Below, piece after piece: positions 10,086 to 33,835 of a stretch of 46,736 nt of DNA. The stretch is from a virus, in IMG/VR virus record IMGVR_UViG_3300042307_000631, positions 1 through 46,736 of that record; one strand, given 5' to 3'. The stretch's first letter is position 1, and the number at the start of each line of letters is the position of its first letter. The translations under genes were made by a program, and so were the position numbers. The notes beneath the pieces were generated by a model, which saw nothing but the letters and a program-made list of their open reading frames with translations, searched no databases and was not told where the DNA came from.

Positions 10086-11801
10086 CTATTTTATTTTTTT
10101 CTTAACGATATAGTTGTTAAGAACCAACGTATCCATATCACAATCTAAAAATGTATCTATTGCATCTTTAGGGGTGTTTACAATGGTCTTATCTTTAACG
10201 TTGAATGATGTATTTAAAACAATTGGATACCCATTATCCTCTTCTAATTGTCTAAGCAAGGAATATACTCTACGATGTTGTTTAAAATTTAAAGTTTGTA
10301 TTCTTGCAGAACCATCTATATGTGTAATAGCAGGTAGATTTTTTATATGTTCCTCTTTTACTTGAACTACCTGATTCATATAAGGAACTAATGGTTTATA
10401 ATCAAAGTATTTTAATCGGTCTTCCTCTTTTACAATTGGAGCAAACGGTCTAAATCCTTCTCTTTTTTTAATTACCTTATTTACCCTTGCTTTCATTTGA
10501 GGGTCTCGCGGGTTAGCAAATATAGAACGATTACCGAGTGCTCTTGAACCAAATTCCATTCTACCCTCATACCAACCGATAACGTTACCATTTGTAATTT
10601 CTCTAGAAATAGTTGTAACAATTTGTGAATGATTTTTAAATTCATACCATACTTCATTTTCATAGTTTTTTAATTCAGTTTCAATTTCATCATTAGTATT
10701 AAACGTACCTAAATACGGATTTGTATTTGGAACTCTAACGGCGGATTCGGTATGGGTATAATAGTAATTCAGTGCACACCCAATAGCAGAACCTGCATCA
10801 GATGGAGCCGGTGGAATCCATAATTGTTTATAACCGGTATTTTTTAAAATCTTACCATTTGCAGTTCCGTTATATGCACATCCACCACTTAGACATAAAT
10901 TATTTGTTGCCCTAATAGCAAACATTTTATTTAATAATCTAAAAAATAGAAATTCGTATTGATGTTGAATTGTTGCTGCTAAATCTTTATGTTCTTGTGT
11001 TAACTCATCTTCTGGTAATCTATTTGGGAGTTCAAACAACTCCGCTAATTTTTCATTAAACATTGAATTATTCGAATAATCATATGTAAAATAATTCATA
11101 TTGATTTCAAACCCACCATCTTCCGTTAATTTATATAATTGTTTAAATTTATTTAAATACGTTTCTGAATTACCATATGGTGCTAATCCCATTACTTTAT
11201 ATTCACCTTCATTTGGTTTAAATCCTAAGAAAGCTGTCATTGCAGAATATAACATTCCTAATGAATGTGGGAATTTAATATTTTGTAATTTTGTAATATT
11301 TTTACCTTCTGCAAATGCTAAAACAGTAGTTTCCCATTCACCCACCCCATCTACTGATAATATAGTTGCTCTTTCAAATGGAGATGTATAATACGAATAT
11401 GCTATATGTGATAGGTGATGGTCACCATATGCTAAAATTATATTTGGATTTGTAATCTGATATATTTTAGATTCAATTTCTTTGGCTTGTGCTTTATTTG
11501 AATCAATAATAGATTTTCGTTTAAAGAAATTAACCAATCCACCTCTTTTAGTAGATTCTTCAATTCTCTCTAATTTTAATTTAGGGTTTTCGTAAAAGGT
11601 AACAACTGATATATCATTACCTGTTATTTTATTATCCTTATACAACCAATTAATAGCATTAGTTGGAAACGTAGCATCGTGTTTTACTCCTGTAAAACGT
11701 TCTTCCTCCATTGCACCGATAACTACTCCATCTAATATTAATGCTGCTGAGGAATCGTGATAACCACATGCTATACCTAAAATATATTTTTTATTCATCA
11801 T
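10086..11801 (-). CDS. Carbamoyltransferase, NodU/CmcH family
   Basis: 571 residues, the normal length for this family. The Kae1-like N-terminal domain shows G-Y-H-D-S-S-A-A-L (13-21), M-E-E-E-R-F-T, the metal-binding D-H-H-L-S-H (127-132) and D-G-V-G-E-W-E-T-T (151-159). The C-terminal YrdC-like domain shows G-R-M-E-F-G-S-R-A-L-G-N-R-S-I and R-E-G-F-R-P-F-A-P-I. Such enzymes make carbamoyl-adenylate from carbamoyl phosphate and ATP and transfer the carbamoyl group to a hydroxyl on a sugar or similar acceptor. It overlaps the late sigma gene by 11 nt. The acceptor is unknown; modified nucleotides or virion/cell-surface glycans are both possible. Confidence 0.92.
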   Translation of the reverse strand: MMNKKYILGIACGYHDSSAALILDGVVIGAMEEERFTGVKHDATFPTNAINWLYKDNKITGNDISVVTFYENPKLKLERIEESTKRGGLVNFFKRKSIIDSNKAQAKEIESKIYQITNPNIILAYGDHHLSHIAYSYYTSPFERATILSVDGVGEWETTVLAFAEGKNITKLQNIKFPHSLGMLYSAMTAFLGFKPNEGEYKVMGLAPYGNSETYLNKFKQLYKLTEDGGFEINMNYFTYDYSNNSMFNEKLAELFELPNRLPEDELTQEHKDLAATIQHQYEFLFFRLLNKMFAIRATNNLCLSGGCAYNGTANGKILKNTGYKQLWIPPAPSDAGSAIGCALNYYYTHTESAVRVPNTNPYLGTFNTNDEIETELKNYENEVWYEFKNHSQIVTTISREITNGNVIGWYEGRMEFGSRALGNRSIFANPRDPQMKARVNKVIKKREGFRPFAPIVKEEDRLKYFDYKPLVPYMNQVVQVKEEHIKNLPAITHIDGSARIQTLNFKQHRRVYSLLRQLEEDNGYPIVLNTSFNVKDKTIVNTPKDAIDTFLDCDMDTLVLNNYIVKKKIK

Positions 11802-14274: not shown

Positions 14275-14711
14275 TATATTACAAACACTTTAAAAGAAGT
14301 TATTCCTAAATCAACCCAAACATCTATTACTCTCTGGTCATCATCATATGCACAAAATACATTTTCTTTTATTTCAGTTTCATATATTTTTTTTTTAAAG
14401 ATGGGTGCTTTTAAAAAATTATTTTCCCAACTTCTCATATATAAATTATCGTATGGGATATTGTATTTTTGTAACCATTCTTTAGTAACCTTTCTTGTAG
14501 ATTCTGGTCTACCTGTTAATATGATAACCTCAAACCCATTTTGTTTATAATTCTTCGCCAATTCAATCATTGGTAGATTTGGTTTGTCTTTTATAAGATT
14601 TTCAGATGAATGCACAATATCCCAATCCAATTTTCCGTTTTCTTTTTCTGCTAATTTAAATCTATCATTAGCTATTGACAATGTATTATCTATATCAATT
14701 ATTATTTTCAT
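14274..14711 (-). CDS. PNKP-type HAD phosphatase
   Basis: 145 residues. Clear HAD motifs: D-I-D-N-T (6-10), L-T-G-R-P-E (65-70) and D-D-D at 123-125. The length and motif spacing match the C-terminal phosphatase half of T4 polynucleotide kinase, which removes 3'-phosphates (or 2',3'-cyclic phosphates) from RNA ends. The kinase half is not fused; a P-loop kinase is encoded separately at 42835-43251. RNA-end repair or nucleotide dephosphorylation is the likely role. It overlaps the radical SAM gene by 4 nt. Confidence 0.8.
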   Translation of the reverse strand: MKIIIDIDNTLSIANDRFKLAEKENGKLDWDIVHSSENLIKDKPNLPMIELAKNYKQNGFEVIILTGRPESTRKVTKEWLQKYNIPYDNLYMRSWENNFLKAPIFKKKIYETEIKENVFCAYDDDQRVIDVWVDLGITSFKVFVI

Positions 14712-15907
14712 AATTCTCTTAATCCTTGTTTTTCATAACTTACTGGCACTTTAATTCCCGTGTTACATCCATTACAATTATCACAAAATGTAATATATCC
14801 TAAATCAGTATAACCTAAATCAAATTTAATTAAATCTTCATTTGATATGTTATTTAAACTAACATAATCATTATCACTTAGAGGAAATAGGTTGGTTCTA
14901 ACTGCTGAAGTATTAAGGTGACAATAGTAAAACTTACCATCATTCAATCCTCTAAATGGTGCTGTGCAACTATCAAAGTGTTTAATTAATTTATCTATTT
15001 CTAAATTCTTTTTAACTCTTAAATCTCCAAAATCATACCACTCTATTTCATTTCTAACATAATGTTTAATTCCATAGTTTTTATATTCTTCAATAGTACG
15101 CATAACTTTATTTTTAAGTTTAGGTAATTTATCCGAATAATCACTTATACTTAAAATAACATCACTATCTTTTAATAATTCAAGAATACTTTCTTTTGGA
15201 GTAACTGTACCATTAGTAGTGATTATAAGTTTATCTAATTTATCTATATGGTTTACTAAAATATGTTGGATTATATTTTCAATATCTGGATGTAGAAATG
15301 GTTCTCCACCAACTAAATGAAACACACTTACAAAGTCTACAACTTTAAAATATGAATCTATATCGGTTATAATAGTTGATAAATTTCTATGATTCGGATT
15401 ATCGTAATGTGGTATAAACATATTACAATGCGAACACGCTAAATTACACCTTTCAGTTACTAATACATCTGTTTGAAATATATGAACTAACTTCTTATAC
15501 ATCAATGGCCAGATTCCTGCTATATGTTTATATGTAGTGTAGGTTGTATTATGTTCATCCAAATATTTTATATAACGTTGTCTATATTCATCCGTTGTAA
15601 TGATAACTTTCTCATTACCATTAAACTCATCTATATGAATTAATTTTATATTCTTTCTATCACTCTTATATTGTTTGGCTTCACGATAATAAGAACTAAT
15701 TTCATTCAAATTATTTATAATCGTACTACTTTTTACATCGTGGTCAACAATATATTTTATTTTTAATCTACCACTTCCAAGCAAAAAATCCATACTCCTA
15801 ATAAATTGGACACATTCTTTACTTGCACCAAATAAAACATATTCGGTTTCAACATCCCAATCAGATATAAATTGTTTGAAATTATGTAAGTGTGGATTAT
15901 AAATCAT
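14708..15907 (-). CDS. Radical SAM enzyme with N-terminal Rossmann-like domain and C-terminal Cys cluster
   Basis: 399 residues. The [4Fe-4S]/SAM-binding motif C-N-L-A-C-S-H-C sits at 154-161, followed by H-L-V-G-G-E-P-F-L (198-206), the usual SAM-contacting element. An extra N-terminal domain (~20-135) begins with a nucleotide-binding-like V-L-F-G-A-S-K. The C-terminus has a SPASM-like Cys set (F-Y-Y-C-H-L, then F-C-D-N-C-N-G-C-N), suggesting auxiliary clusters. Such enzymes modify peptides or sugars. Neighbours are a sugar-type HAD protein and a deformylase. Substrate is unknown. Confidence 0.88.
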   Translation of the reverse strand: MIYNPHLHNFKQFISDWDVETEYVLFGASKECVQFIRSMDFLLGSGRLKIKYIVDHDVKSSTIINNLNEISSYYREAKQYKSDRKNIKLIHIDEFNGNEKVIITTDEYRQRYIKYLDEHNTTYTTYKHIAGIWPLMYKKLVHIFQTDVLVTERCNLACSHCNMFIPHYDNPNHRNLSTIITDIDSYFKVVDFVSVFHLVGGEPFLHPDIENIIQHILVNHIDKLDKLIITTNGTVTPKESILELLKDSDVILSISDYSDKLPKLKNKVMRTIEEYKNYGIKHYVRNEIEWYDFGDLRVKKNLEIDKLIKHFDSCTAPFRGLNDGKFYYCHLNTSAVRTNLFPLSDNDYVSLNNISNEDLIKFDLGYTDLGYITFCDNCNGCNTGIKVPVSYEKQGLREL

Positions 15908-25678: not shown

Positions 25679-26323
25679 TTATATTAGGGTTTTTGAAAAT
25701 GGAACGTTATTATTTTCATTTTTAATAAATTCTGAATAAGGTTTCCAATCTATTCCCATTTGGACGTATTGTAATTCAGAATTACACCTATTTGTAATAT
25801 CAACCTTACTTATATCTATCGTTTTAGCATATTCCCCAGTCATCCACCAAAAATTACCAGAATACATTATATTTGTAGGATTGATTACTGTTTCTAATAA
25901 AACACCATAGGTATTAAACGTACTACTATTTAAAACATTAAATACATTATCAATATATTGAATATTGTATAATTGCATCACATTTCTCCATCGGATAGAT
26001 TCGGAATCGGTTTGTTTAGTTGCCCCCTTTGTGTGTAGGTAAAAAATATAATCATTATCATTAAATAATGGTTTATCTCTTTCTATTAAATTTAAAGTTA
26101 CAAACTCATTACCCATTAATTTAGTATCGCCAATTATAATTCTTGAATTGTACTCATAAATTAATTTAATTATATCATCTAATGAGTTGTTATTTTCTGA
26201 TATTGAAATACCAATAGTTAATGAGTATGGTTGATTAATATATTTTTTTATTAATGTCAGTTGTTCATTTATTATAGATTCAATGTCATCTATAAGGTAT
26301 ATGTGGTAATATATTCGTATCAT
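25679..26323 (-). CDS. Glycosyltransferase-like protein ending in KTLI
   Basis: 214 residues. The pattern F-Y-L-H-T-K-G-A (94-101), a following R-W-R-N-V-M, and Y-S-G-N-F-W-W-M (154-161) matches a GT-A-like group found in polysaccharide loci. Residues before this (D-D-I-I-K-L-I, then I-I-I-G-D-T-K) are consistent with a nucleotide-sugar fold. It ends S-K-T-L-I, the C-terminal tag shared across this cassette, and it is the last gene of the run, with no gene starting near its stop. Donor and acceptor unknown. Confidence 0.65.
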   Translation of the reverse strand: MIRIYYHIYLIDDIESIINEQLTLIKKYINQPYSLTIGISISENNNSLDDIIKLIYEYNSRIIIGDTKLMGNEFVTLNLIERDKPLFNDNDYIFYLHTKGATKQTDSESIRWRNVMQLYNIQYIDNVFNVLNSSTFNTYGVLLETVINPTNIMYSGNFWWMTGEYAKTIDISKVDITNRCNSELQYVQMGIDWKPYSEFIKNENNNVPFSKTLI

Positions 26324-26332
26324 ATTAATGAT

Positions 26333-27124
26333 TTATAATAATTTATTTTCATATTTCTTTAATGTAAAGATATTTGGGTATTTAATTGACACCCAATCAA
26401 ATAATTTATTACTGTATTGATTATTATGTAATTTACCTGGATGTGAACCATCCGCACCAAAATCTATAAAGGGCGTATATGATATAATAAATTTATTATT
26501 ATCAATATAATCAGTATCTACACTATTCCATATAAATGGAATTTTTTTATTTTCTAAATAATTTGTTATCAATAAATGATTTTTATACCAATTTATATAA
26601 TCATCACTATCGTTTTGTAATCCCTCTTTTAGTTTTTGTATGGTCTTTCCTTCTTCAGTTTCTTCTAAGTATCCCCAACTTTGAGTGGGAATGTATGGTT
26701 CTATTTGTTCAGATTGTGTATATATTTCTCTTCGATGATTAAATGTATATAAAATTAAAACTAAATCTGGTTTGATTTCATCACAATATGAAATCAAACA
26801 TCTTGAAATATAATCATTACTTCTTCCACTTACTCCAAAATTTAAATTAACACTATTTGGTATATGTGAACAAAATTGTGCGGGCCAAGTTTCATTATTA
26901 TTTACACCAACCCCTTCCGTTAAAGAACATCCGATAGACATAACCTTTAATCCTTTTTTATGTATCGAATCCCCCCTAAATCCTAATTCATTATAACCAT
27001 AAGTACATAATCCCGTATTATCACTTCCACATGTTTTATATGTTTTATTTATTCTTCCTTTTAATGAATATTTGTAAGATGCAATCTCAAACCCTTCCGA
27101 ATTCCAATATTGTAATGGTTTCAT
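26333..27124 (-). CDS. SGNH/GDSL-type hydrolase
   Basis: 263 residues. Block I is S-I-G-C-S-L-T-E-G (63-71, nucleophile Ser67), followed by N-F-G-V-S-G-R-S-N-D (95-104) holding the oxyanion-hole Gly and Asn, and D-G-S-H-P-G (225-230) holding the Asp-His pair. Members deacylate sugars or lipids. It lacks a signal peptide, so it acts in the cytoplasm. It ends E-N-K-L-L, a weak version of the cassette tag. Acetyl-ester removal from a glycan or peptide is a reasonable inference. Confidence 0.8.
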   Translation of the reverse strand: MKPLQYWNSEGFEIASYKYSLKGRINKTYKTCGSDNTGLCTYGYNELGFRGDSIHKKGLKVMSIGCSLTEGVGVNNNETWPAQFCSHIPNSVNLNFGVSGRSNDYISRCLISYCDEIKPDLVLILYTFNHRREIYTQSEQIEPYIPTQSWGYLEETEEGKTIQKLKEGLQNDSDDYINWYKNHLLITNYLENKKIPFIWNSVDTDYIDNNKFIISYTPFIDFGADGSHPGKLHNNQYSNKLFDWVSIKYPNIFTLKKYENKLL

Positions 27125-27183
27125 ATTAATTTATTTTATCTAATTCTGTTGATAAATTGATTATGTAAGTGCATTCCTCTTTA

Positions 27184-27744
27184 CTAAATAATATTTTTTC
27201 TCTTAAAATCATGTGTTAAAGTATATGTGTCTTTTCTATATTTTTTATCATAATCAAGTATATCCAAATGGGTTGGGTTTTCAATATTTAAATATCTAAT
27301 CACCCTATTAATATCTGTTTTATTAATATATACATTTTCATATGTTATTTGAAATAAATTTTTATTTTTTAAACGGGTTTTTAAATGTTTATATTTATAA
27401 CTCGTTTCTATTATTTTATTTTTATTATCGTTAATCCACTCATTTGTTATTTCATATGGCTCGTGCCATTTACTTTTATTATCCGCATTAAGAAAACTTA
27501 TTGCTGTATCAATGCTATTTTCCCTTCTTAAACAAATAACCTTATCAAATTTATTAATATCATTATCTGATGGCCAATATGCTTCTATAACTATTTTTCT
27601 AATTATTTTATTTTTTTTAAATATAGAATCAAATGTGTTTTTGTCATATGGGGTTTCATCTAATTCAAAATTCAATTCTTTAGATATCCATTTACATAAT
27701 GTAGTAGAACCACATCGTGTATGAGATAAAATTAAAATCTTCAT
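27184..27744 (-). CDS. Sulfotransferase-like P-loop protein
   Basis: 186 residues. The 5'-phosphosulfate-binding-like loop is S-H-T-R-C-G-S-T-T-L (7-16) and the 3'-phosphate-binding-like element is I-C-L-R-R-E-N-S-I-D-T-A-I-S (69-82). These two motifs define the PAPS-dependent sulfotransferase fold. Its start overlaps the stop of the radical SAM gene (TAATG). It ends K-R-K-N-I-I, a variant of the cassette tag. Sulfation of a sugar or peptide Tyr is possible; substrate is not evident. Confidence 0.75.
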   Translation of the reverse strand: MKILILSHTRCGSTTLCKWISKELNFELDETPYDKNTFDSIFKKNKIIRKIVIEAYWPSDNDINKFDKVICLRRENSIDTAISFLNADNKSKWHEPYEITNEWINDNKNKIIETSYKYKHLKTRLKNKNLFQITYENVYINKTDINRVIRYLNIENPTHLDILDYDKKYRKDTYTLTHDFKRKNII

Positions 27745-28793
27745 TACATTAAAGTTTTTTTTGTAGTATCAATGAACTCATATAAATTATGAAAAAGGTA
27801 TCCGTTTTTCCATATCTTATTAAGTTCTTTTTTAAATAACTGATGTTCTGGGTGTTCCATATTCCACACTTGTTTTAATTTAAATTCACCCTCCGAAAAT
27901 GTACCCCAATTAGTTATTTTACCAAAGAATACGTTTACTTTTTTACCAAAAATAGAATACATTAGGTTATAAAACGTTTCCATTTCCATATAGTTACTAT
28001 CTTGTACAACAAATGATGTTTTAACTGATATTGGTAGGGTGCTTATAAATTTAAGATTATTTAATAAAGTTTCCCAATTTCCACCTATTCTAGTTTTATT
28101 TTCATAAGTATCACGCGTTCCTGCATCTATTGATATTTCACAAGTATGTACAAATTTATGAATGTTTGACATACTATCCCACATCTCTTTATTCCACATT
28201 GATGCGTTAGTATGAAGATGTATGGATTTTAAATTAGGATATTTTTTAGGATTAAAATTTCTTAAATAATTTCTAAACCCAACAGATACAAATGGGTCAC
28301 CGGAGCCGGTAATGTATAATGTTTTTACATGCTGTGAATAATAGTTATCAATATCTTCAATTGTTTTTTCAACTCGTTTTATACCTTGACTATTTTCTAC
28401 AATTAAATCTACTCTACAAGAAGGACATTTATAATTACACGTCCTATCAAAATTCATTACCACATTATCGGGTGTGTTATTTTTTATAATAGGACTATTA
28501 ATATTTGAATCAGATTTTAAAATAATAGGTCCTGATGTTGCTCCGTAGTTTACTAATTTACTTAAATAGGGACAAAGTTCTTTACTACAATATTTAAATG
28601 AACCATCTAATATAGAATTTCTAATGTCGATAATTGGTTCACTATTCCATATATCTTTTAATGGAATTTCACCAATTTCTACTTTATTTGGTAACCACGA
28701 TGGACAACAAACAAAACAAACATTATTATGTATTTCTAATGAATTAAAGGGAACACTACAAAAATAATTTTTTAAATTTATTTTAGATTTCAT
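27744..28793 (-). CDS. Radical SAM enzyme with N-terminal SPASM-like Cys region
   Basis: 349 residues. The cluster motif C-N-Y-K-C-P-S-C is at 119-126, followed by Y-I-T-G-S-G-D-P-F (GGEP-like). Unusually, a Cys-rich SPASM-like segment precedes the barrel: Cys12, Cys26, Cys29, Cys30, then G-E-I-P-L-K-D-I-W-N-S (41-51) and Cys69/Cys74. That resembles SPASM/twitch domains placed N-terminally in some sugar- or peptide-modifying enzymes. It follows a 49-residue peptide gene and an ATP-grasp/Hint-like gene. It ends K-K-T-L-M, the cassette tag. Substrate unknown. Confidence 0.85.
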   Translation of the reverse strand: MKSKINLKNYFCSVPFNSLEIHNNVCFVCCPSWLPNKVEIGEIPLKDIWNSEPIIDIRNSILDGSFKYCSKELCPYLSKLVNYGATSGPIILKSDSNINSPIIKNNTPDNVVMNFDRTCNYKCPSCRVDLIVENSQGIKRVEKTIEDIDNYYSQHVKTLYITGSGDPFVSVGFRNYLRNFNPKKYPNLKSIHLHTNASMWNKEMWDSMSNIHKFVHTCEISIDAGTRDTYENKTRIGGNWETLLNNLKFISTLPISVKTSFVVQDSNYMEMETFYNLMYSIFGKKVNVFFGKITNWGTFSEGEFKLKQVWNMEHPEHQLFKKELNKIWKNGYLFHNLYEFIDTTKKTLM

Positions 28794-28835
28794 TTCATAA
28801 CAATTTAACTAATGAAACCAAATACTTAGTAGATA

Positions 28836-28985
28836 TTATTCTCCTAAATGTTTAACTTTAATTGCAGATACAACCGCTTCAAATGCTGCAGCTATTTTTG
28901 TTTTTAAGTCATTAGATATCGGACCAGTAACCACTTTAACTAATTGTGCAGGTCTTGCTACTTTTATTTTTTCTACTTTTGCCAT
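28836..28985 (-). CDS. 49-residue peptide next to radical SAM gene
   Basis: A frame of 49 codons (M-A-K-V-E-K-I-K-V-A at 28985, ending K-V-K-H-L-G-E at 28836). It is basic at the N-terminus, then helical and Ala/Val-rich (I-A-A-A-F-E-A-V-V-S-A-I). It sits between the ATP-grasp/Hint-like gene and the radical SAM gene and lacks the cassette tag. The position is where a modified precursor peptide would be expected, but the sequence has no Cys and only three Ser/Thr residues. A T4-late-like TATAAATA occurs at 29006-29013, 21 nt upstream. Confidence 0.55.
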   Translation of the reverse strand: MAKVEKIKVARPAQLVKVVTGPISNDLKTKIAAAFEAVVSAIKVKHLGE

Positions 28986-29045
28986 GATTTTATTTTTATT
29001 TGAATTATTTATACTTTGGGATTAGAACTATATTACCTATATAAC

Positions 29046-30521
29046 TTATTTCTGACCTAAACAGGTTGGGCAATAGGATTGATAACAATAATTACCACAA
29101 TAACTCCAACTACACCAACAAGCATTATGCATTACAGCAAAATCACTATCTCCCACATCCACTAAAAATAAATCGGATGGTGCAAAATCTAAAGTATATA
29201 TTGTTTTACTTTCATATATCATCTCTAAATTAGAAATTTCTATTGCCCTTAATTCAGTTGTATTTGAATCAGTTACAACTATTTTATCACCAATATAACA
29301 TTTATTTATTACCTCCCATCTGGTTTCGGTCGAGTCTTTTTCCTCAATAAAAAAAGTAGAATTTGGGGCTTCTGTCCAAGTTCGTCCATCTACTAACGTA
29401 ACATTTACCATCACCATTTCTACTGATGCTGATACCATACCTATTAATTCAGATTGTATTGGTGTTAACGTATTATTTAATTGTGATAGTGTACCAGTCC
29501 ATCCAAATGTGGCAATATTATTTGTAAATGTGGCCGCTTCGTTTTCATTTGTATCGGTAAAGTTAATAGAACGAATATAATCACCTAATTGAATAATATC
29601 AACATCTACTAAAGTACCATCATATTTTAAAATATTTGAATCGTCATCTGTATGGTAGTCGTTTCCTTCTACTCGATTCCTAATAGATTTTGTAATATAT
29701 TTATGTCTAGTTTTTTGATTAAACTTTCTAGTATCAGAAATAAATTCATCCTCACTAAATATAAGTGGTAATCTAGTAGAATGAGTATATCCACCCATAT
29801 TAATAATATCTAAATCAGAGCCGTAAATAATATCAATACTCCTTATTGTTGAATACCTACCATCTACTACATTATCTTCAGAATATATAAATTCTTGAAC
29901 TAAATACCCGTCTTCAACGGAATCAATAACTTCAGATAATTGGATTGAATCAGAAACATTATATATTGCAGGATATACCATAACATCATACAAAGCCTGA
30001 TTTGATTTTACTACAAGATTTGGTTTTGTCGTGGTGTAATCTACGTCATCTAAGGTATTTAAATTTAATTCTTCAGATGTAAAATATGTTTTTGGAATAT
30101 ATGCAGACCCACTCATTAAGTTAAAAAACTCAAATTTATTAGCACAATATAAATCATCTACTAATGCGGTCGTATCAAACGCTTGTCTTAAAATAAATTT
30201 ATAAGATGCATCTTCTATATATGGGACAGTAACCGAATTAGTTGGTACAATATGTTCGTTAAAAGTTATATTGTTTTCTAAACATTTAGTTTGTAATATA
30301 TTACGAAATATGTGCGGCTCATCTGAAGGTGTAAACGCCTTCCCTTCAGTCCATATATAATGAAATTCAGTAATATTATTACTGGTTAATACATTAAATA
30401 ACACTGTATAATCTAATAAGTTTGCACCGGCATTAGAGATACATGTATTAGTGTTTATTTCTATAATTTTAACTGAACCATTTTGTTGTAGCAAATCACT
30501 ACCAATTATTGTTGCTTTCAT
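29046..30521 (-). CDS. ATP-grasp-like / Hint-like protein with Cys-rich C-terminal tail
   Basis: 491 residues. The N-terminal half looks ATP-grasp-like: I-I-E-I-N-T-N-T (19-26), F-I-L-R-Q-A-F-D-T-T-A-L-V-D-D (109-123), L-V-V-K-S-N-Q-A-L (169-177). Residues ~293-466 look like a Hint domain (D-G-T-L-V-D-V-D-I-I-Q-L-G-D, then C-Y-I-G-D-K-I-V-V, then F-A-V-M-H-N-A). No N-terminal Cys/Ser nucleophile is obvious, so splicing is unlikely, but Asn466 cyclisation after His465 could release the last 25 residues. That tail has six Cys (468, 470, 475, 479, 484, 487) and many Tyr/Trp. This fold reading is by eye. Confidence 0.6.
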   Translation of the reverse strand: MKATIIGSDLLQQNGSVKIIEINTNTCISNAGANLLDYTVLFNVLTSNNITEFHYIWTEGKAFTPSDEPHIFRNILQTKCLENNITFNEHIVPTNSVTVPYIEDASYKFILRQAFDTTALVDDLYCANKFEFFNLMSGSAYIPKTYFTSEELNLNTLDDVDYTTTKPNLVVKSNQALYDVMVYPAIYNVSDSIQLSEVIDSVEDGYLVQEFIYSEDNVVDGRYSTIRSIDIIYGSDLDIINMGGYTHSTRLPLIFSEDEFISDTRKFNQKTRHKYITKSIRNRVEGNDYHTDDDSNILKYDGTLVDVDIIQLGDYIRSINFTDTNENEAATFTNNIATFGWTGTLSQLNNTLTPIQSELIGMVSASVEMVMVNVTLVDGRTWTEAPNSTFFIEEKDSTETRWEVINKCYIGDKIVVTDSNTTELRAIEISNLEMIYESKTIYTLDFAPSDLFLVDVGDSDFAVMHNACWCSWSYCGNYCYQSYCPTCLGQK

Positions 30522-30540
30522 AATTTTTATTCTATTTATG

Positions 30541-30549
30541 TATAAATAT
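30541..30549 (-). promoter_or_regulatory. Candidate late promoter motif (ATATTTATA type)
   Basis: On the minus strand CACATATTTATAC is 20 nt before the ATG at 30521, within a 54-nt gap, and is followed by CATAAATAG. It could give separate expression of the ATP-grasp/Hint-like gene. Confidence 0.3.
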
Positions 30550-30575
30550 GTGAATTACTAATTTTAATTAAAATA

Positions 30576-30878
30576 TTACATTAAGGTTTTGTTTACTTTA
30601 TCTTCTTTTGGTTCTATATACCCAAAATCGGTATTTTCCCATTTTTTTGCTGGGCAGGCGTTGTAGTTTGTTGAGAACACTTTCTTATTCAAAGGGCACC
30701 CACATTTTCCACAAAGGGCACTCCATTTTAACCCTTTTATTGTTTCTTTTCTAAATTCACACCCCAAACATACTTCGAGTCTTAATTTAGCTAACTCCTC
30801 TTGTTTTGGTGTTGGATTATATGAAATTATCCAAGCATCAAATATTTCTTTATAATTAATAGTAGGTATTTTAATCAT
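30576..30878 (-). CDS. Small zinc-binding-type protein ending in KTLM
   Basis: 100 residues. Cysteines are spaced C-L-G-C (37-40), C-G-K-C-G-C (56-61) and A-C-P (74-76), typical of a treble-clef or zinc-ribbon-like module, with W52 and W80 nearby. Such proteins are found in phage and bacterial small-protein sets without defined function. It ends V-N-K-T-L-M, the tag seen across this cassette, although no gene starts near its stop. It is 1 nt from the next gene upstream. Confidence 0.7.
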   Translation of the reverse strand: MIKIPTINYKEIFDAWIISYNPTPKQEELAKLRLEVCLGCEFRKETIKGLKWSALCGKCGCPLNKKVFSTNYNACPAKKWENTDFGYIEPKEDKVNKTLM

Positions 30879-30879
30879 C

Positions 30880-31335
30880 TTATATTAGTGTCATTTTTGT
30901 TTCAAATAATTTATTGTGTAGGAATCCAACTAGTGTAAATCGTGCACCAATACAATTTTCTACTTTATGTGATTCTTCTTTAGTAAAATATACAATAGTT
31001 CCTATTTTGGGGGTTATAGATATTTCATCAAAGATTAATTTGCCTCCGGTATAATTATTGTTTAAAAAAATAACAAAAGAGTAGTTATTTTTATGTGCAT
31101 GTTTAGTTTTTACTTGTACGATACTTTCGTCTGTGCGTTGTATCCTAAGTTTTTTAAAATCACACCTTTCAAATTTGGGAATAATATCTATAACTTTTTT
31201 TAAATATGGAATTAAATCAACACCAAAAAAGTGATAGATATTATCATTTACATTCATAACATTTATATCGTCCCATAAATTAATAACAGAATCACATTGT
31301 TGTGGTGTTATGTAGTTATCAATAATTTTAATCAT
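30880..31335 (-). CDS. 2OG-Fe(II)-oxygenase-like protein, metal motif altered
   Basis: 151 residues. It has the DSBH features of prolyl-4-hydroxylase-like enzymes: S-F-V-I-F-L-N-N-N-Y-T-G-G-K-L-I-F, then P-K-I-G-T-I-V-Y-F, a distal His in E-S-H-K-V and the 2OG-binding Arg in G-A-R-F-T-L. The proximal HxD is replaced by H-A-H (97-99 region, K-H-A-H-K-N-N), so iron binding is uncertain. It ends E-T-K-M-T-L-I, the cassette tag with Met in place of Lys. Confidence 0.65.
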   Translation of the reverse strand: MIKIIDNYITPQQCDSVINLWDDINVMNVNDNIYHFFGVDLIPYLKKVIDIIPKFERCDFKKLRIQRTDESIVQVKTKHAHKNNYSFVIFLNNNYTGGKLIFDEISITPKIGTIVYFTKEESHKVENCIGARFTLVGFLHNKLFETKMTLI

Positions 31336-31336
31336 T

Positions 31337-32098
31337 TTATATTAGTGTCTTATTAGTTTTTGGTATATCATAGAAATCATAAATACTATTGTACCTTTCT
31401 TTGAAATTTTGATTTAGTTTTAGAGAACACTCCATATGTTGGCTAGAATTAACTTGTTTTAGGTTAAATTCTTTTCCAATTTTATTTGAGACCCATTTTT
31501 CCATAAGATTTAATTCTTTAATATCAAACCAAATAATATCCTTGTCGTGATTGTGCCAATATGATGATGGGGTTATTAATATATTAATTACGTTAACTAT
31601 ATATTCTTCGGAATATAAGTCCATAAGTTTAGATGGTCTAGCAGGATTTTTAATAAATTCGTTTTTTAATAAAAAATCGTTTATTATGTTAAGTCTATTC
31701 TCATTAGAGTATAAATCTTCTGTTTTAAAAAAAAATAATTCATCTAAACTTATATTTTTAAAAAAATCATAAACCTTGCGTGCGTTAGCCCTTTTCAAAT
31801 CAAAAAGAATATGTTTATATAATGAATAAAAAGTATCGTGTCTATCCCTTTTAACAGCAATTACGGGATATTGAAATCCAAACTTTTCTCTAAGCAATTG
31901 TAACTCCTCATGTCCATGTGTAATTAACTGCATTATATGTTTTTCATCTATATTTTCAAAATTAATTTTAGAATTTATTTTTCCCCATTCTGAATTTATA
32001 CTTTTTATTTCTAAATCGTGTAATATACAAGAATAATGAAATGAGGTTGACCCACATCTTGGTAAATTTACATATATAAACTTATTATCTACTAACAT
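31337..32098 (-). CDS. Sulfotransferase-like protein ending in KTLI
   Basis: 253 residues. The N-terminal P-loop-like motif V-N-L-P-R-C-G-S-T-S-F-H (10-21) matches the 5'-PSB of sulfotransferases, and A-V-K-R-D-R-H-D-T-F-Y-S-L-Y matches the 3'-PB region. The middle contains a long helical segment. It is the second such protein in the cassette. It ends T-N-K-T-L-I, and its start overlaps the preceding stop (TAATG). Substrate unknown. Confidence 0.75.
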   Translation of the reverse strand: MLVDNKFIYVNLPRCGSTSFHYSCILHDLEIKSINSEWGKINSKINFENIDEKHIMQLITHGHEELQLLREKFGFQYPVIAVKRDRHDTFYSLYKHILFDLKRANARKVYDFFKNISLDELFFFKTEDLYSNENRLNIINDFLLKNEFIKNPARPSKLMDLYSEEYIVNVINILITPSSYWHNHDKDIIWFDIKELNLMEKWVSNKIGKEFNLKQVNSSQHMECSLKLNQNFKERYNSIYDFYDIPKTNKTLI

Positions 32099-32751
32099 TA
32101 TATTAACGATTTTTCCTTCTTAATAAAATCAAATCCAACATTTCCCGCTATAACGATTCTATCAATTGTTGAATTAGGTGCGTTATTAGGTGCGTGAGGC
32201 ATATCCGCCTCCATAATAATCAAATCATCTTCTTCAGGTCGAATCCAATATTCGTTTTTATTTTTACCTCTGAAATATAAAACGCCATCTTCCCCATCCA
32301 TAACATCTGGCATTTGTATGTAGTAAACCCAAGTATAGTGAGGAACAAATTGTTTATTACCTTTACTTATATCGGTATGGATATGGTATTTATCAATACC
32401 TTTTAGTTCTTCGTGTTTGAATTGAATTTGAATTGGATTAATAGAACGTACCATATTAACCCACGTCTCCATATTAATTTTATTATGAGTTATATTTTTT
32501 TCTTTATAAATTTCTTTACATTTATCAATACCAATTTGAATTATTTCATCTAACTTCGTTTTTATATCAATACTACCATCAAAGTTAATATTTTTATTCC
32601 ATTCCATTGTGTATCCAAATCCATCAGTTCTATTTTTAGTTGCAGATTCTATTACTAATTTAGTCTCATCTAATAAAATAGATTTATCCAATAATCTATT
32701 TAATTTGGTTTTCCAAATATATGTGGTTTCATCAAAATATATTTTTTCCAT
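32098..32751 (-). CDS. 2OG-Fe(II)-oxygenase-like protein
   Basis: 217 residues. A double-stranded beta-helix core is indicated by K-Y-H-I-H-T-D (HxD motif His/Asp), Y-T-W-V-Y-Y-I-Q-M, G-V-L-Y-F-R-G, then the distal His in A-D-M-P-H-A-P-N and Arg in I-D-R-I-V-I-A-G-N-V. These are the iron ligands and 2OG-binding Arg of this superfamily. It ends E-K-S-L-I, a tag variant. The hydroxylated substrate could be a peptide, base or sugar. Confidence 0.75.
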   Translation of the reverse strand: MEKIYFDETTYIWKTKLNRLLDKSILLDETKLVIESATKNRTDGFGYTMEWNKNINFDGSIDIKTKLDEIIQIGIDKCKEIYKEKNITHNKINMETWVNMVRSINPIQIQFKHEELKGIDKYHIHTDISKGNKQFVPHYTWVYYIQMPDVMDGEDGVLYFRGKNKNEYWIRPEEDDLIIMEADMPHAPNNAPNSTIDRIVIAGNVGFDFIKKEKSLI

Positions 32752-32754
32752 ACT

Positions 32755-33270
32755 TTAAATTATACTTTTAGTTTGATTATCTATAAACCCAAAAAAAGCC
32801 ACCAAACTATATCTTACTCCATTAGTAATAGGCAGGACTCTATGTTGTAACTGATTATTCATAATAACTACTAAATTTTTTTGTGGAATAATTTTTAATT
32901 TATTATTGGTATCATTAATATATTCTAACTCCCCTCCAATATAATCATCATTTAAATATAATATTAATGAACACGGCGATATATCTTTATGAAAATTATC
33001 ATTTTTATTAGAGTTACTATCAATTTTATTAATCCACATTGATTTTAATTCTAAATTAGTGTATAATTTAGTTTTAATATATGATTCTATCCCCATAACA
33101 ATATTATATATTAAGGGGTCTTTTAAATCTAAAAATTGTCTAAAATAAAAATTTGTACTATTTTTTTCGTTGGTTGGTGATTCAGATAAAATAAAATTAT
33201 TACATTGTTTATGTAAAAATTCCATATCAGCATCACTTATTACTTTACTATTTTTATCTACTAAAATCAT
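32755..33270 (-). CDS. Prolyl-4-hydroxylase-like 2OG-Fe(II) oxygenase
   Basis: 171 residues. The iron triad appears complete: H-K-D in N-F-H-K-D-I-S and the distal His in Q-L-Q-H-R-V-L-P, with 2OG-binding Arg in G-V-R-Y-S-L-V. A family-typical Y-L-N-D-D-Y-I-G-G-E-L-E-Y lies between. Its paralogue is the next gene upstream, 33272-33835, which shares H-R-V-x-P-I and G-V-R-Y-S-L-V. It ends Q-T-K-S-I-I, a tag variant. Confidence 0.85.
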   Translation of the reverse strand: MILVDKNSKVISDADMEFLHKQCNNFILSESPTNEKNSTNFYFRQFLDLKDPLIYNIVMGIESYIKTKLYTNLELKSMWINKIDSNSNKNDNFHKDISPCSLILYLNDDYIGGELEYINDTNNKLKIIPQKNLVVIMNNQLQHRVLPITNGVRYSLVAFFGFIDNQTKSII

Positions 33271-33271
33271 A

Positions 33272-33835
33272 CTATATTAAATTTTGTTTTTTTGAATTAG
33301 TTTTAACTAAGGATATCCAATTTACCAATGAATACCTAACTCCATTCAAAATAGGAGTTACTCTATGAAGTAATCTTGAATTAAAAATATATAATGTTCC
33401 AATTTTGTTTTCTATCGGTACAATTTCACCTTTAATATTTTTTATTTCTAATATACCTCCGTTGTATGTATCGTTTAACTGAATTACTATCGATGTAAAT
33501 CTATCTCTATATATGGTATCGGTACTATCAGTATGCCAATCAAAATACTCACCTTCTTTATATTCAGTAAATTGGAAATCCCCAAATCCAGTAACTTCCA
33601 TACCATTTATATTAAAAGTTTCTTTTAATCTTATTTTTAATCTTTCGTTTAAAAATCCCAAATCCGATATCCACCCAATCGATGATTTTCTAGTTGTTTT
33701 TGTAGACAAAGTATTAGAGTGACCACTATATACTTCGGCGTTTGATAATGTTAATTCTTTTTTACATTTATTTAAAATAAAATCACACTCTTCGGCCGAC
33801 AGGAAATTTTTAAATATGTCTATGTTACCAACCAT
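33272..33835 (-). CDS. Prolyl-4-hydroxylase-like 2OG-Fe(II) oxygenase
   Basis: 187 residues. Motifs: D-W-H-T-D (HxD), L-N-D-T-Y-N-G-G-I-L-E-I, F-N-S-R-L-L-H-R-V-T-P-I (distal His) and G-V-R-Y-S-L-V (2OG Arg). The G-D-F-Q-F-T-E-Y-K-E-G-E-Y segment before HxD matches PKHD-type hydroxylases. It is first in the cassette, just after a terminator, and paralogous to its downstream neighbour. It ends K-K-Q-N-L-I, the most divergent tag variant. Confidence 0.85.
   Translation of the reverse strand: MVGNIDIFKNFLSAEECDFILNKCKKELTLSNAEVYSGHSNTLSTKTTRKSSIGWISDLGFLNERLKIRLKETFNINGMEVTGFGDFQFTEYKEGEYFDWHTDSTDTIYRDRFTSIVIQLNDTYNGGILEIKNIKGEIVPIENKIGTLYIFNSRLLHRVTPILNGVRYSLVNWISLVKTNSKKQNLI

Follow-up and report, generated by a model that had tools for sequence, protein, structure and literature searches.

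We analysed a cassette of twelve genes encoded on the minus strand, from position 33835 to 25679, of a 46.7-kb virus contig (IMG/VR record IMGVR_UViG_3300042307_000631; the whole stretch of 46,736 nucleotides is called here the window). Most proteins of this cassette end in closely related residues, which we refer to as the tag. From 33835 to 25679 the tails read QNLI, KSII, KSLI, KTLI, MTLI, KTLM, LGQK, HLGE, KTLM, KNII, NKLL and KTLI, where LGQK belongs to an untagged protein, referred to below as the carrier, and HLGE to a 49-residue peptide. An earlier note on this DNA, made from the letters alone, had reported that ten of the twelve genes have related tails, and that this peptide and a Hint-like protein, i.e. 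the carrier, lack them. All twelve open reading frames (ORFs), their coordinates and their tails were confirmed, including the two untagged ones. The features of the cassette, with lengths in amino acids (aa), are as follows.

33272..33835, minus strand: 2-oxoglutarate (2OG)-Fe(II) oxygenase, 187 aa, tail KKQNLI (tag codons 33275-33286); phrog_61, 4.7e-30.
32755..33270, minus strand: 2OG-Fe(II) oxygenase, 171 aa, tail TKSII; PF13640, 2.8e-9, domain end at residue 160 of 171.
32098..32751, minus strand: 2OG-Fe(II) oxygenase-like protein, 217 aa, tail EKSLI; PF13640, 2.3e-4 (below the curated cut-off); phrog_81, 1.1e-8.
31337..32098, minus strand: sulfotransferase-like protein (family ST4), 253 aa, tail NKTLI; no Pfam match, weak profile match to heparan sulfate 2-O-sulfotransferase (E 0.003).
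30880..31335, minus strand: 2OG-Fe(II) oxygenase, 151 aa, tail KMTLI; PF13640, 2.1e-7, domain end at residue 140 of 151.
30576..30878, minus strand: small Cys-rich protein (probably a Zn protein), 100 aa, tail NKTLM; six Cys invariant in 21 homologues; no gene start at its stop.
29046..30521, minus strand: carrier protein, 491 aa, untagged; described from alignment and structure models.
29682..30521, minus strand: carrier residues 1-280, ATP-grasp-like domain by fold (AlphaFold2 pLDDT 89.6; Foldseek), with invariant D9, E21, N23, K172 and R227.
29124..29672, minus strand: carrier residues 284-466, predicted Hint/intein fold (Foldseek) ending in invariant H465-N466.
29049..29123, minus strand: carrier residues 467-491, Cys-rich C-terminal peptide ACWCSWSYCGNYCYQSYCPTCLGQK with six Cys (from Cys counts over carriers).
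28836..28985, minus strand: untagged, conserved helical peptide of 49 aa, encoded immediately after the carrier; found in 32 of 34 A-type loci and 0 of 12 B-type loci.
27744..28793, minus strand: radical SAM enzyme, 349 aa, tail KKTLM; PF04055, 9e-9; 43 of 46 homologues tagged.
27184..27744, minus strand: sulfotransferase-like protein (family ST5), 186 aa, tail RKNII; homologues weakly match PF13469, PF09037 and PF00685; lipopolysaccharide sulfotransferase NodH, E 0.059.
26333..27124, minus strand: SGNH/GDSL-like protein, 263 aa, weak tail ENKLL; PF13472, 0.002, and PF19547, 0.0013, both below cut-off.
25679..26323, minus strand: glycosyltransferase-like protein (an ORF without a family match), 214 aa, tail SKTLI; tag present in 4 of 5 homologues; no gene start at its stop.

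The window also encodes a second radical SAM enzyme (14708-15907) and a carbamoyltransferase (10086-11801), both untagged.

The strict pattern K[TSN][LI][IM] was present at the end of 7 of the 12 cassette genes and in 0 of the 48 other minus-strand ORFs of the window, while a looser pattern, [polar][TSNK][LI][ILM], was present in 10 of the 12. Internal 4-mers matched the strict pattern at 1.5e-4 (binomial for the cassette, 1.6e-24). This last value is partly circular, because the pattern was derived from the same window. Therefore, the pattern was tested in other loci. We gathered 180 loci via relatives of three cassette proteins and of the carrier. ORFs were called with a simple script as the longest non-overlapping ORFs of at least 60 aa, with no trained gene finder. 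Genes with identical last 60 residues were removed and the remaining 1,843 non-redundant genes were clustered by BLASTP into 369 clusters. Since loci found through window proteins are a non-random sample and related sequences are not independent, all counts over loci are descriptive.

In the first 106 loci (1,112 non-redundant genes) the strict motif occupied 13.4% of the exact C-termini compared with 0-0.3% at offsets of 1-15 residues, and 20 of 68 families were majority-tagged at offset 0 compared with 0-1 at offsets 1-12. In four large records of related phages, 376 genes remote from the cassette gave 1 match to the strict and 13 to the loose pattern. Over all 180 loci the motif was limited to the exact C-terminus, in about 17 families. 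The offset and far-gene controls rule out chance arising from AT-rich codon use.

The tag might also be a C-terminal degron or protease-control signal that clears the enzymes after use. Short hydrophobic C-termini are recognised by bacterial proteases, which speaks for such a role. It would leave the restriction of the tag to carrier-adjacent enzymes unexplained, as far genes of the same phages gave the single strict match mentioned above, and the polar K and T positions of the tag are conserved as well. We regard this explanation as quite unlikely.

The earlier note had placed selection on the peptide and not on the DNA, and the codons bear this out. Codon use at positions -4 to -2 matched that in the interior of each gene; the last codon alone favoured ATA or TTA somewhat, a lean that we attribute to ATGA overlaps. 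For family members at 35-75% identity, amino-acid identity was 0.63 and 0.71 at the last two residues and 0.49 at -4, and it fell to 0.21-0.31 at -5, -6, -8 and -9. Codon identity, given the same residue, was not raised at tag positions. Between the window and the related locus L010 the peptide was kept, while Ser changed from TCG to AGC (in the gene at 32098..32751, tail EKSLI), Leu changed from CTA to TTA, and the stops differed. In 21 sequences of the Zn protein an unalignable linker is followed by K-x-x-x-[TS]-[LIM]-[ILM]; two of them deviate in their final residues, one having Y at its end. In the 2OG oxygenases the domain ends approximately 11 residues upstream of the tag. Selection on the tag peptide is strongly supported by these comparisons.

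A DNA or RNA signal at gene ends, such as translation coupling, ribosome binding or recombination joints, could in principle write the tail by chance. We observed that 63% of the tagged genes abut the next gene or overlap it, and the ATA/TTA lean in the last codon would also agree with such a signal, but the remaining codons follow the gene background and the Ser, Leu and stop codons switch between relatives. Moreover, stop-start junctions of 5 nt or less were untagged in 256 cases and tagged in 246, and for 14% of tagged genes there is no gene close downstream. The genes at 25679 and 30576 are of this kind, as the earlier note had stated. Stop-start junctions and translation coupling are ruled out by codon use, synonymous change and the untagged junctions, and we consider any gene-end signal of this sort highly improbable. 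Both objections that the earlier note had raised in advance to its own idea failed.

The tagged proteins belong to unrelated families. The tagged oxygenases comprise 2OG-Fe(II) enzymes (PF13640) and an Asp/Asn hydroxylase (PF05118, 4e-12). The tag was also found on radical SAM enzymes (PF04055), flavin Trp halogenase (PF04820, 1.8e-88), SET (PF00856, 1.7e-11), FkbM methyltransferase (PF05050) and glycosyltransferase 90 (PF05686, 2e-20). Identity is weaker for a tagged SDR (PF00106, 2e-5, below its curated cut-off) and for SGNH-like proteins (weak matches), and the set further includes two sulfotransferase-like families (weak matches) and the small Cys-rich protein. The tag spans at least eight unrelated kinds of predicted enzymes. 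Common descent of the tails across families is excluded by the unrelated Pfam families; inside the 2OG cluster, paralogy accounts for tail sharing.

In the 180 loci the tag was carried by 48 of 51 radical SAM enzymes, 84 of 93 ST4 proteins, 69 of 79 Zn proteins, 66 of 78 ST5 proteins and 191 of 224 members of the main 2OG cluster (other 2OG clusters: 53/63, 11/12 and 10/10). For the halogenase the count was 22 of 39 by the loose pattern. Families were bimodal, with dozens of neighbouring families having no tags at all.

Three single loci deserve mention. Between two genes of L006 (11379-11466) lies a decayed 84-bp copy of the ST4 C-terminus, still reading ...NKTLI*, which is a trace of gene turnover in the cassette. 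Within the cassette of L021 and its B-type relatives, one 2OG oxygenase (156 aa) has NFWFH at its end and not the tag. Two possible tagged genes, encoding a sulfotransferase-like protein ending in RPKLI and an SGNH-like protein ending in AKQLI, lie far from the cassette in a 335-kb record (L192:844-1473 and 2333-2968).

Tag frequency was 0.5-0.86 within five genes on either side of the carrier and 0.05-0.12 at twelve genes, and 57% of genes within 6 kb of the carrier were tagged compared with 9% elsewhere in the same loci. We further examined 49 loci with long flanks, selected for carrying the carrier, and each of them had 3-13 tagged genes. Of the families tabulated there, only the tagged 2OG cluster was present in 49 of 49 loci; radical SAM enzymes were present in 27 and halogenases in 22. 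The identical tag was found with all carrier subgroups, and the carrier itself was untagged in all 92 members of its cluster. The earlier note had treated the Hint-like protein as an untagged exception. Untagged it is, but it is actually the gene at the centre of the tagged cluster, and it is likely to be the substrate or the receptor. The 49-aa peptide, which is helical-looking and about 62-100% conserved, occurs beside A-type carriers only; its absence from B-type loci rules it out as a universal receptor.

The enzymes might instead be docked by the tag on the virion or tail fibre, or on a host structure, where they would decorate a neighbouring collagen-like or Gly/Ser-rich fibre, the carrier being one virion part. 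Long fibre proteins with Peptidase_S74 and collagen repeats do follow the cassette in several loci (L048, collagen 3e-13 and S74 2e-17; L028), the fibre of L089 has GS repeats, collagen repeats could be hydroxylated by 2OG oxygenases, and the carrier of L099 extends into a weakly S74-like segment. Yet no fibre follows the cassette in the window and its record has no S74 match, the tags centre on the carrier and not on the fibre, and the large glycosyltransferases adjoining the fibre (cluster 20) are untagged. Docking on the virion or a fibre appears unlikely to us.

The C-terminal part of the carrier has a predicted Hint/intein fold (Foldseek, 2e-7 to inteins, bacterial intein-like (BIL) domains and hedgehog), and its C-terminal HN was invariant in 31 of 31 carriers. 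No Cys was found in the Cys1 region of the same 31 carriers and the block-B His was present in just 2 of them; therefore, the N-terminal intein chemistry looks dead, while C-terminal Asn cyclisation at HN is possible. The peptide that follows HN has 25-49 residues and contains 18-21% Cys compared with 0.6% in the carrier body. The number of Cys was exactly six in 56 of 56 A-type and six or eight in 23 of 23 B-type carriers (79/79 together). Pairwise identity dropped from body to tail, from 0.59 to 0.23 in B-type and from 0.65 to 0.53 in A-type carriers. In A-type carriers the last residues of the Cys-rich peptide are often K-[LIVA] (PKL, EKV, SKL), a faint likeness to the tag of the enzymes. 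Carriers at L072:3230-5968 and L089:6075-7937 have canonical Hint modules with Cys1 after a degenerate one (in tandem in L072, which matches Intein_splicing at 3.4e-24) and no Cys-rich tail. At L099:12922-14616 the carrier continues past the Cys-rich peptide into the segment weakly resembling Peptidase_S74, a tail-fibre chaperone (E 0.02).

The modelled N-terminal part of the carrier resembles ATP-grasp enzymes by fold. Foldseek matched it to glutathionylspermidine synthetase (2e-5, TMq 0.39), and tubulin-tyrosine ligase ranked first in a viral structure library (E 0.01); sequence profiles gave no ATP-grasp match for this domain. The five residues listed above were invariant across 36 carrier sequences. 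They would also suit a reading in which the tag is a substrate, i.e. the ATP-grasp domain would link an amine to the carboxylate at the C-terminus of every enzyme, with covalent tethering or modification as the result, and relatives of this fold do activate peptide carboxylates. Against it stand the weak fold match, the lack of any known product and a last residue that is conserved as hydrophobic, as in plain binding motifs. We judge it improbable that the tag serves as a substrate.

The earlier note had suggested a docking, localisation or degradation tag that brings one enzyme set together. That the tag joins one enzyme set is strongly supported; the three roles are indistinguishable by sequence, and docking accounts best for the finding that only enzymes next to a single conserved, untagged protein have the tag. 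We propose, with slightly less than even confidence, that the tag docks swappable tailoring enzymes at the carrier, that these modify its Cys-rich peptide, and that the peptide is then released at HN. The motif, approximately K-x-x-[KN]-[TS]-[LI]-[IL]-COOH behind a short variable linker, would act as the docking tag and bring 2OG oxygenases, radical SAM enzymes, halogenase, sulfotransferase-like proteins, methyltransferases and glycosyltransferases to the carrier encoded among them. The docked enzymes would modify the disulfide-type Cys-rich peptide at the carrier C-terminus, and Asn cyclisation at the invariant HN would then free it. What the data show are the tag, selection on it as a peptide, its occurrence on unrelated enzymes, its link to the carrier, the Hint fold and the chemistry of the tail; receptor, docking, substrate and release are inferred. 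The likeliest candidate for the receptor is the ATP-grasp-like domain of the carrier, because related enzymes bind peptide C-terminal carboxylates. Tentatively, and with more reserve, one may see here a viral combinatorial machine for peptide modification, in which any enzyme with the plug K-[TS]-[LI]-[IL] joins the set around a Hint-released hypervariable disulfide-type peptide, with the ATP-grasp-like domain as receptor. As any tagged enzyme could join the set, phages would swap chemistries by swapping tagged genes.

Several observations weigh against docking at the carrier. Tagging tracks the gene family more than it tracks distance within a family. The ATP-grasp assignment is fold-based, with a low TM value. 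Since the Hint domain has no Cys1, release would have to proceed by C-terminal Asn cyclisation alone. Four tandem-Hint carriers (e.g. L072, L089) without a Cys-rich tail still have tagged enzymes. Lastly, halogenase loci had at least two Trp in the Cys-rich tail (25/25) and Trp-free tails were not accompanied by a halogenase (0/8; Fisher 6e-4), but this association tracks the carrier subgroups and is lost within subgroup A (p = 0.61). With no difference there, the link between Trp and halogenase is no more than consistent with the model.

Relatives of the carrier are encoded on more than 200 contig stretches. We did not find the carrier or the radical SAM enzyme in 50,697 isolated-phage records, nor the carrier in GTDB genomes at the sensitivity of the scan, and megablast of a halogenase DNA stretch against isolated phages gave no match. 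Homologues of the oxygenase at 33272..33835 occur in 343 isolated-phage records, and the cyanophage homologues among the matches listed align only to residue 173-175 of 187. Of the oxygenase and halogenase homologues from isolated phages that we inspected, not one has the tag. Judging from their sequences, phages with the tagged cassette form a large group, uncultured and T4-like. T4-type gp23 capsid matches were present in 8 of 10 large related records, 5 of them above the curated cut-off. Some short ORFs of 73-107 aa (G005:302958-303137, G007:23899-24081, G010:122409-122513 and G014:55376-55525) match a small stretch from the interior of T4 gp23; they are separate from the main capsid gene in records where that gene was found.

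If the proposed mechanism is true, common uncultured phages make modified Cys-rich peptides, and the tag is a natural modular recruitment code for peptide modification, a C-terminal plug common to halogenases, radical SAM enzymes, oxygenases, sulfotransferase-like proteins and methyltransferases. Such a plug would be of use in the construction of enzyme assemblies and in the discovery of peptides made by phages.

A literature search found no counterpart of the tag or the carrier in titles or abstracts, and no paper joining four of the five features phage, Trp halogenase, sulfotransferase, radical SAM enzyme and oxygenase. The closest ideas are targeting peptides of encapsulins, PDZ ligands and clusters for ribosomally synthesised and post-translationally modified peptides (RiPPs), and on the features tested the system belongs to none of them. 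Cyanophage Trp halogenases (VirX1, 6qgm) are phage flavin halogenases of the same family as the tagged ones, but the isolated-phage homologues have neither the tag nor the cassette. PDZ class I ligands (x-[ST]-x-hydrophobic-COOH) resemble the tag in that T or S occupies -3 in approximately 52% of the tails in tagged families and the last residue is I, L or M; in contrast to them, the tag also commonly has Lys, Asn or Glu at the third-last position. PDZ domains (PF17820, PF13180) were found in 0 of 10 related records, although a host PDZ could serve. Encapsulin cargo-loading (targeting) peptides (e.g. PMC7925596) are likewise short C-terminal peptides that bring proteins to one partner. Here, many unrelated kinds of enzymes are encoded per locus and the candidate partner is not a shell; the encapsulin shell (PF04454) was found in 0 of 10 related records.

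The PT-HINT of polymorphic toxins, BIL domains and hedgehog have, like the carrier, a Hint domain with a variable segment behind it at the C-terminus, which could be cleaved away. The carrier differs from them in lacking Cys1 and nearly always the block-B His, with HN invariant, and its segment is a Cys-rich peptide of 25-49 aa and not a toxin domain; Pfam scans of carriers named no toxin-type domain. RiPP clusters also encode a variable peptide beside oxygenases, radical SAM enzymes, halogenase and methyltransferases. The PqqD/RRE recognition element (PF05402), common but not universal in RiPP clusters, was found in 0 of 10 related records. Where RiPPs have leader removal, here a Hint fold with invariant HN precedes the Cys-rich peptide as a predicted release site. 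The precursor would be an ATP-grasp/Hint carrier of approximately 490 aa with the candidate core at its C-terminus, and, in contrast to RiPP clusters, the enzymes share a C-terminal tag and are encoded by phages.

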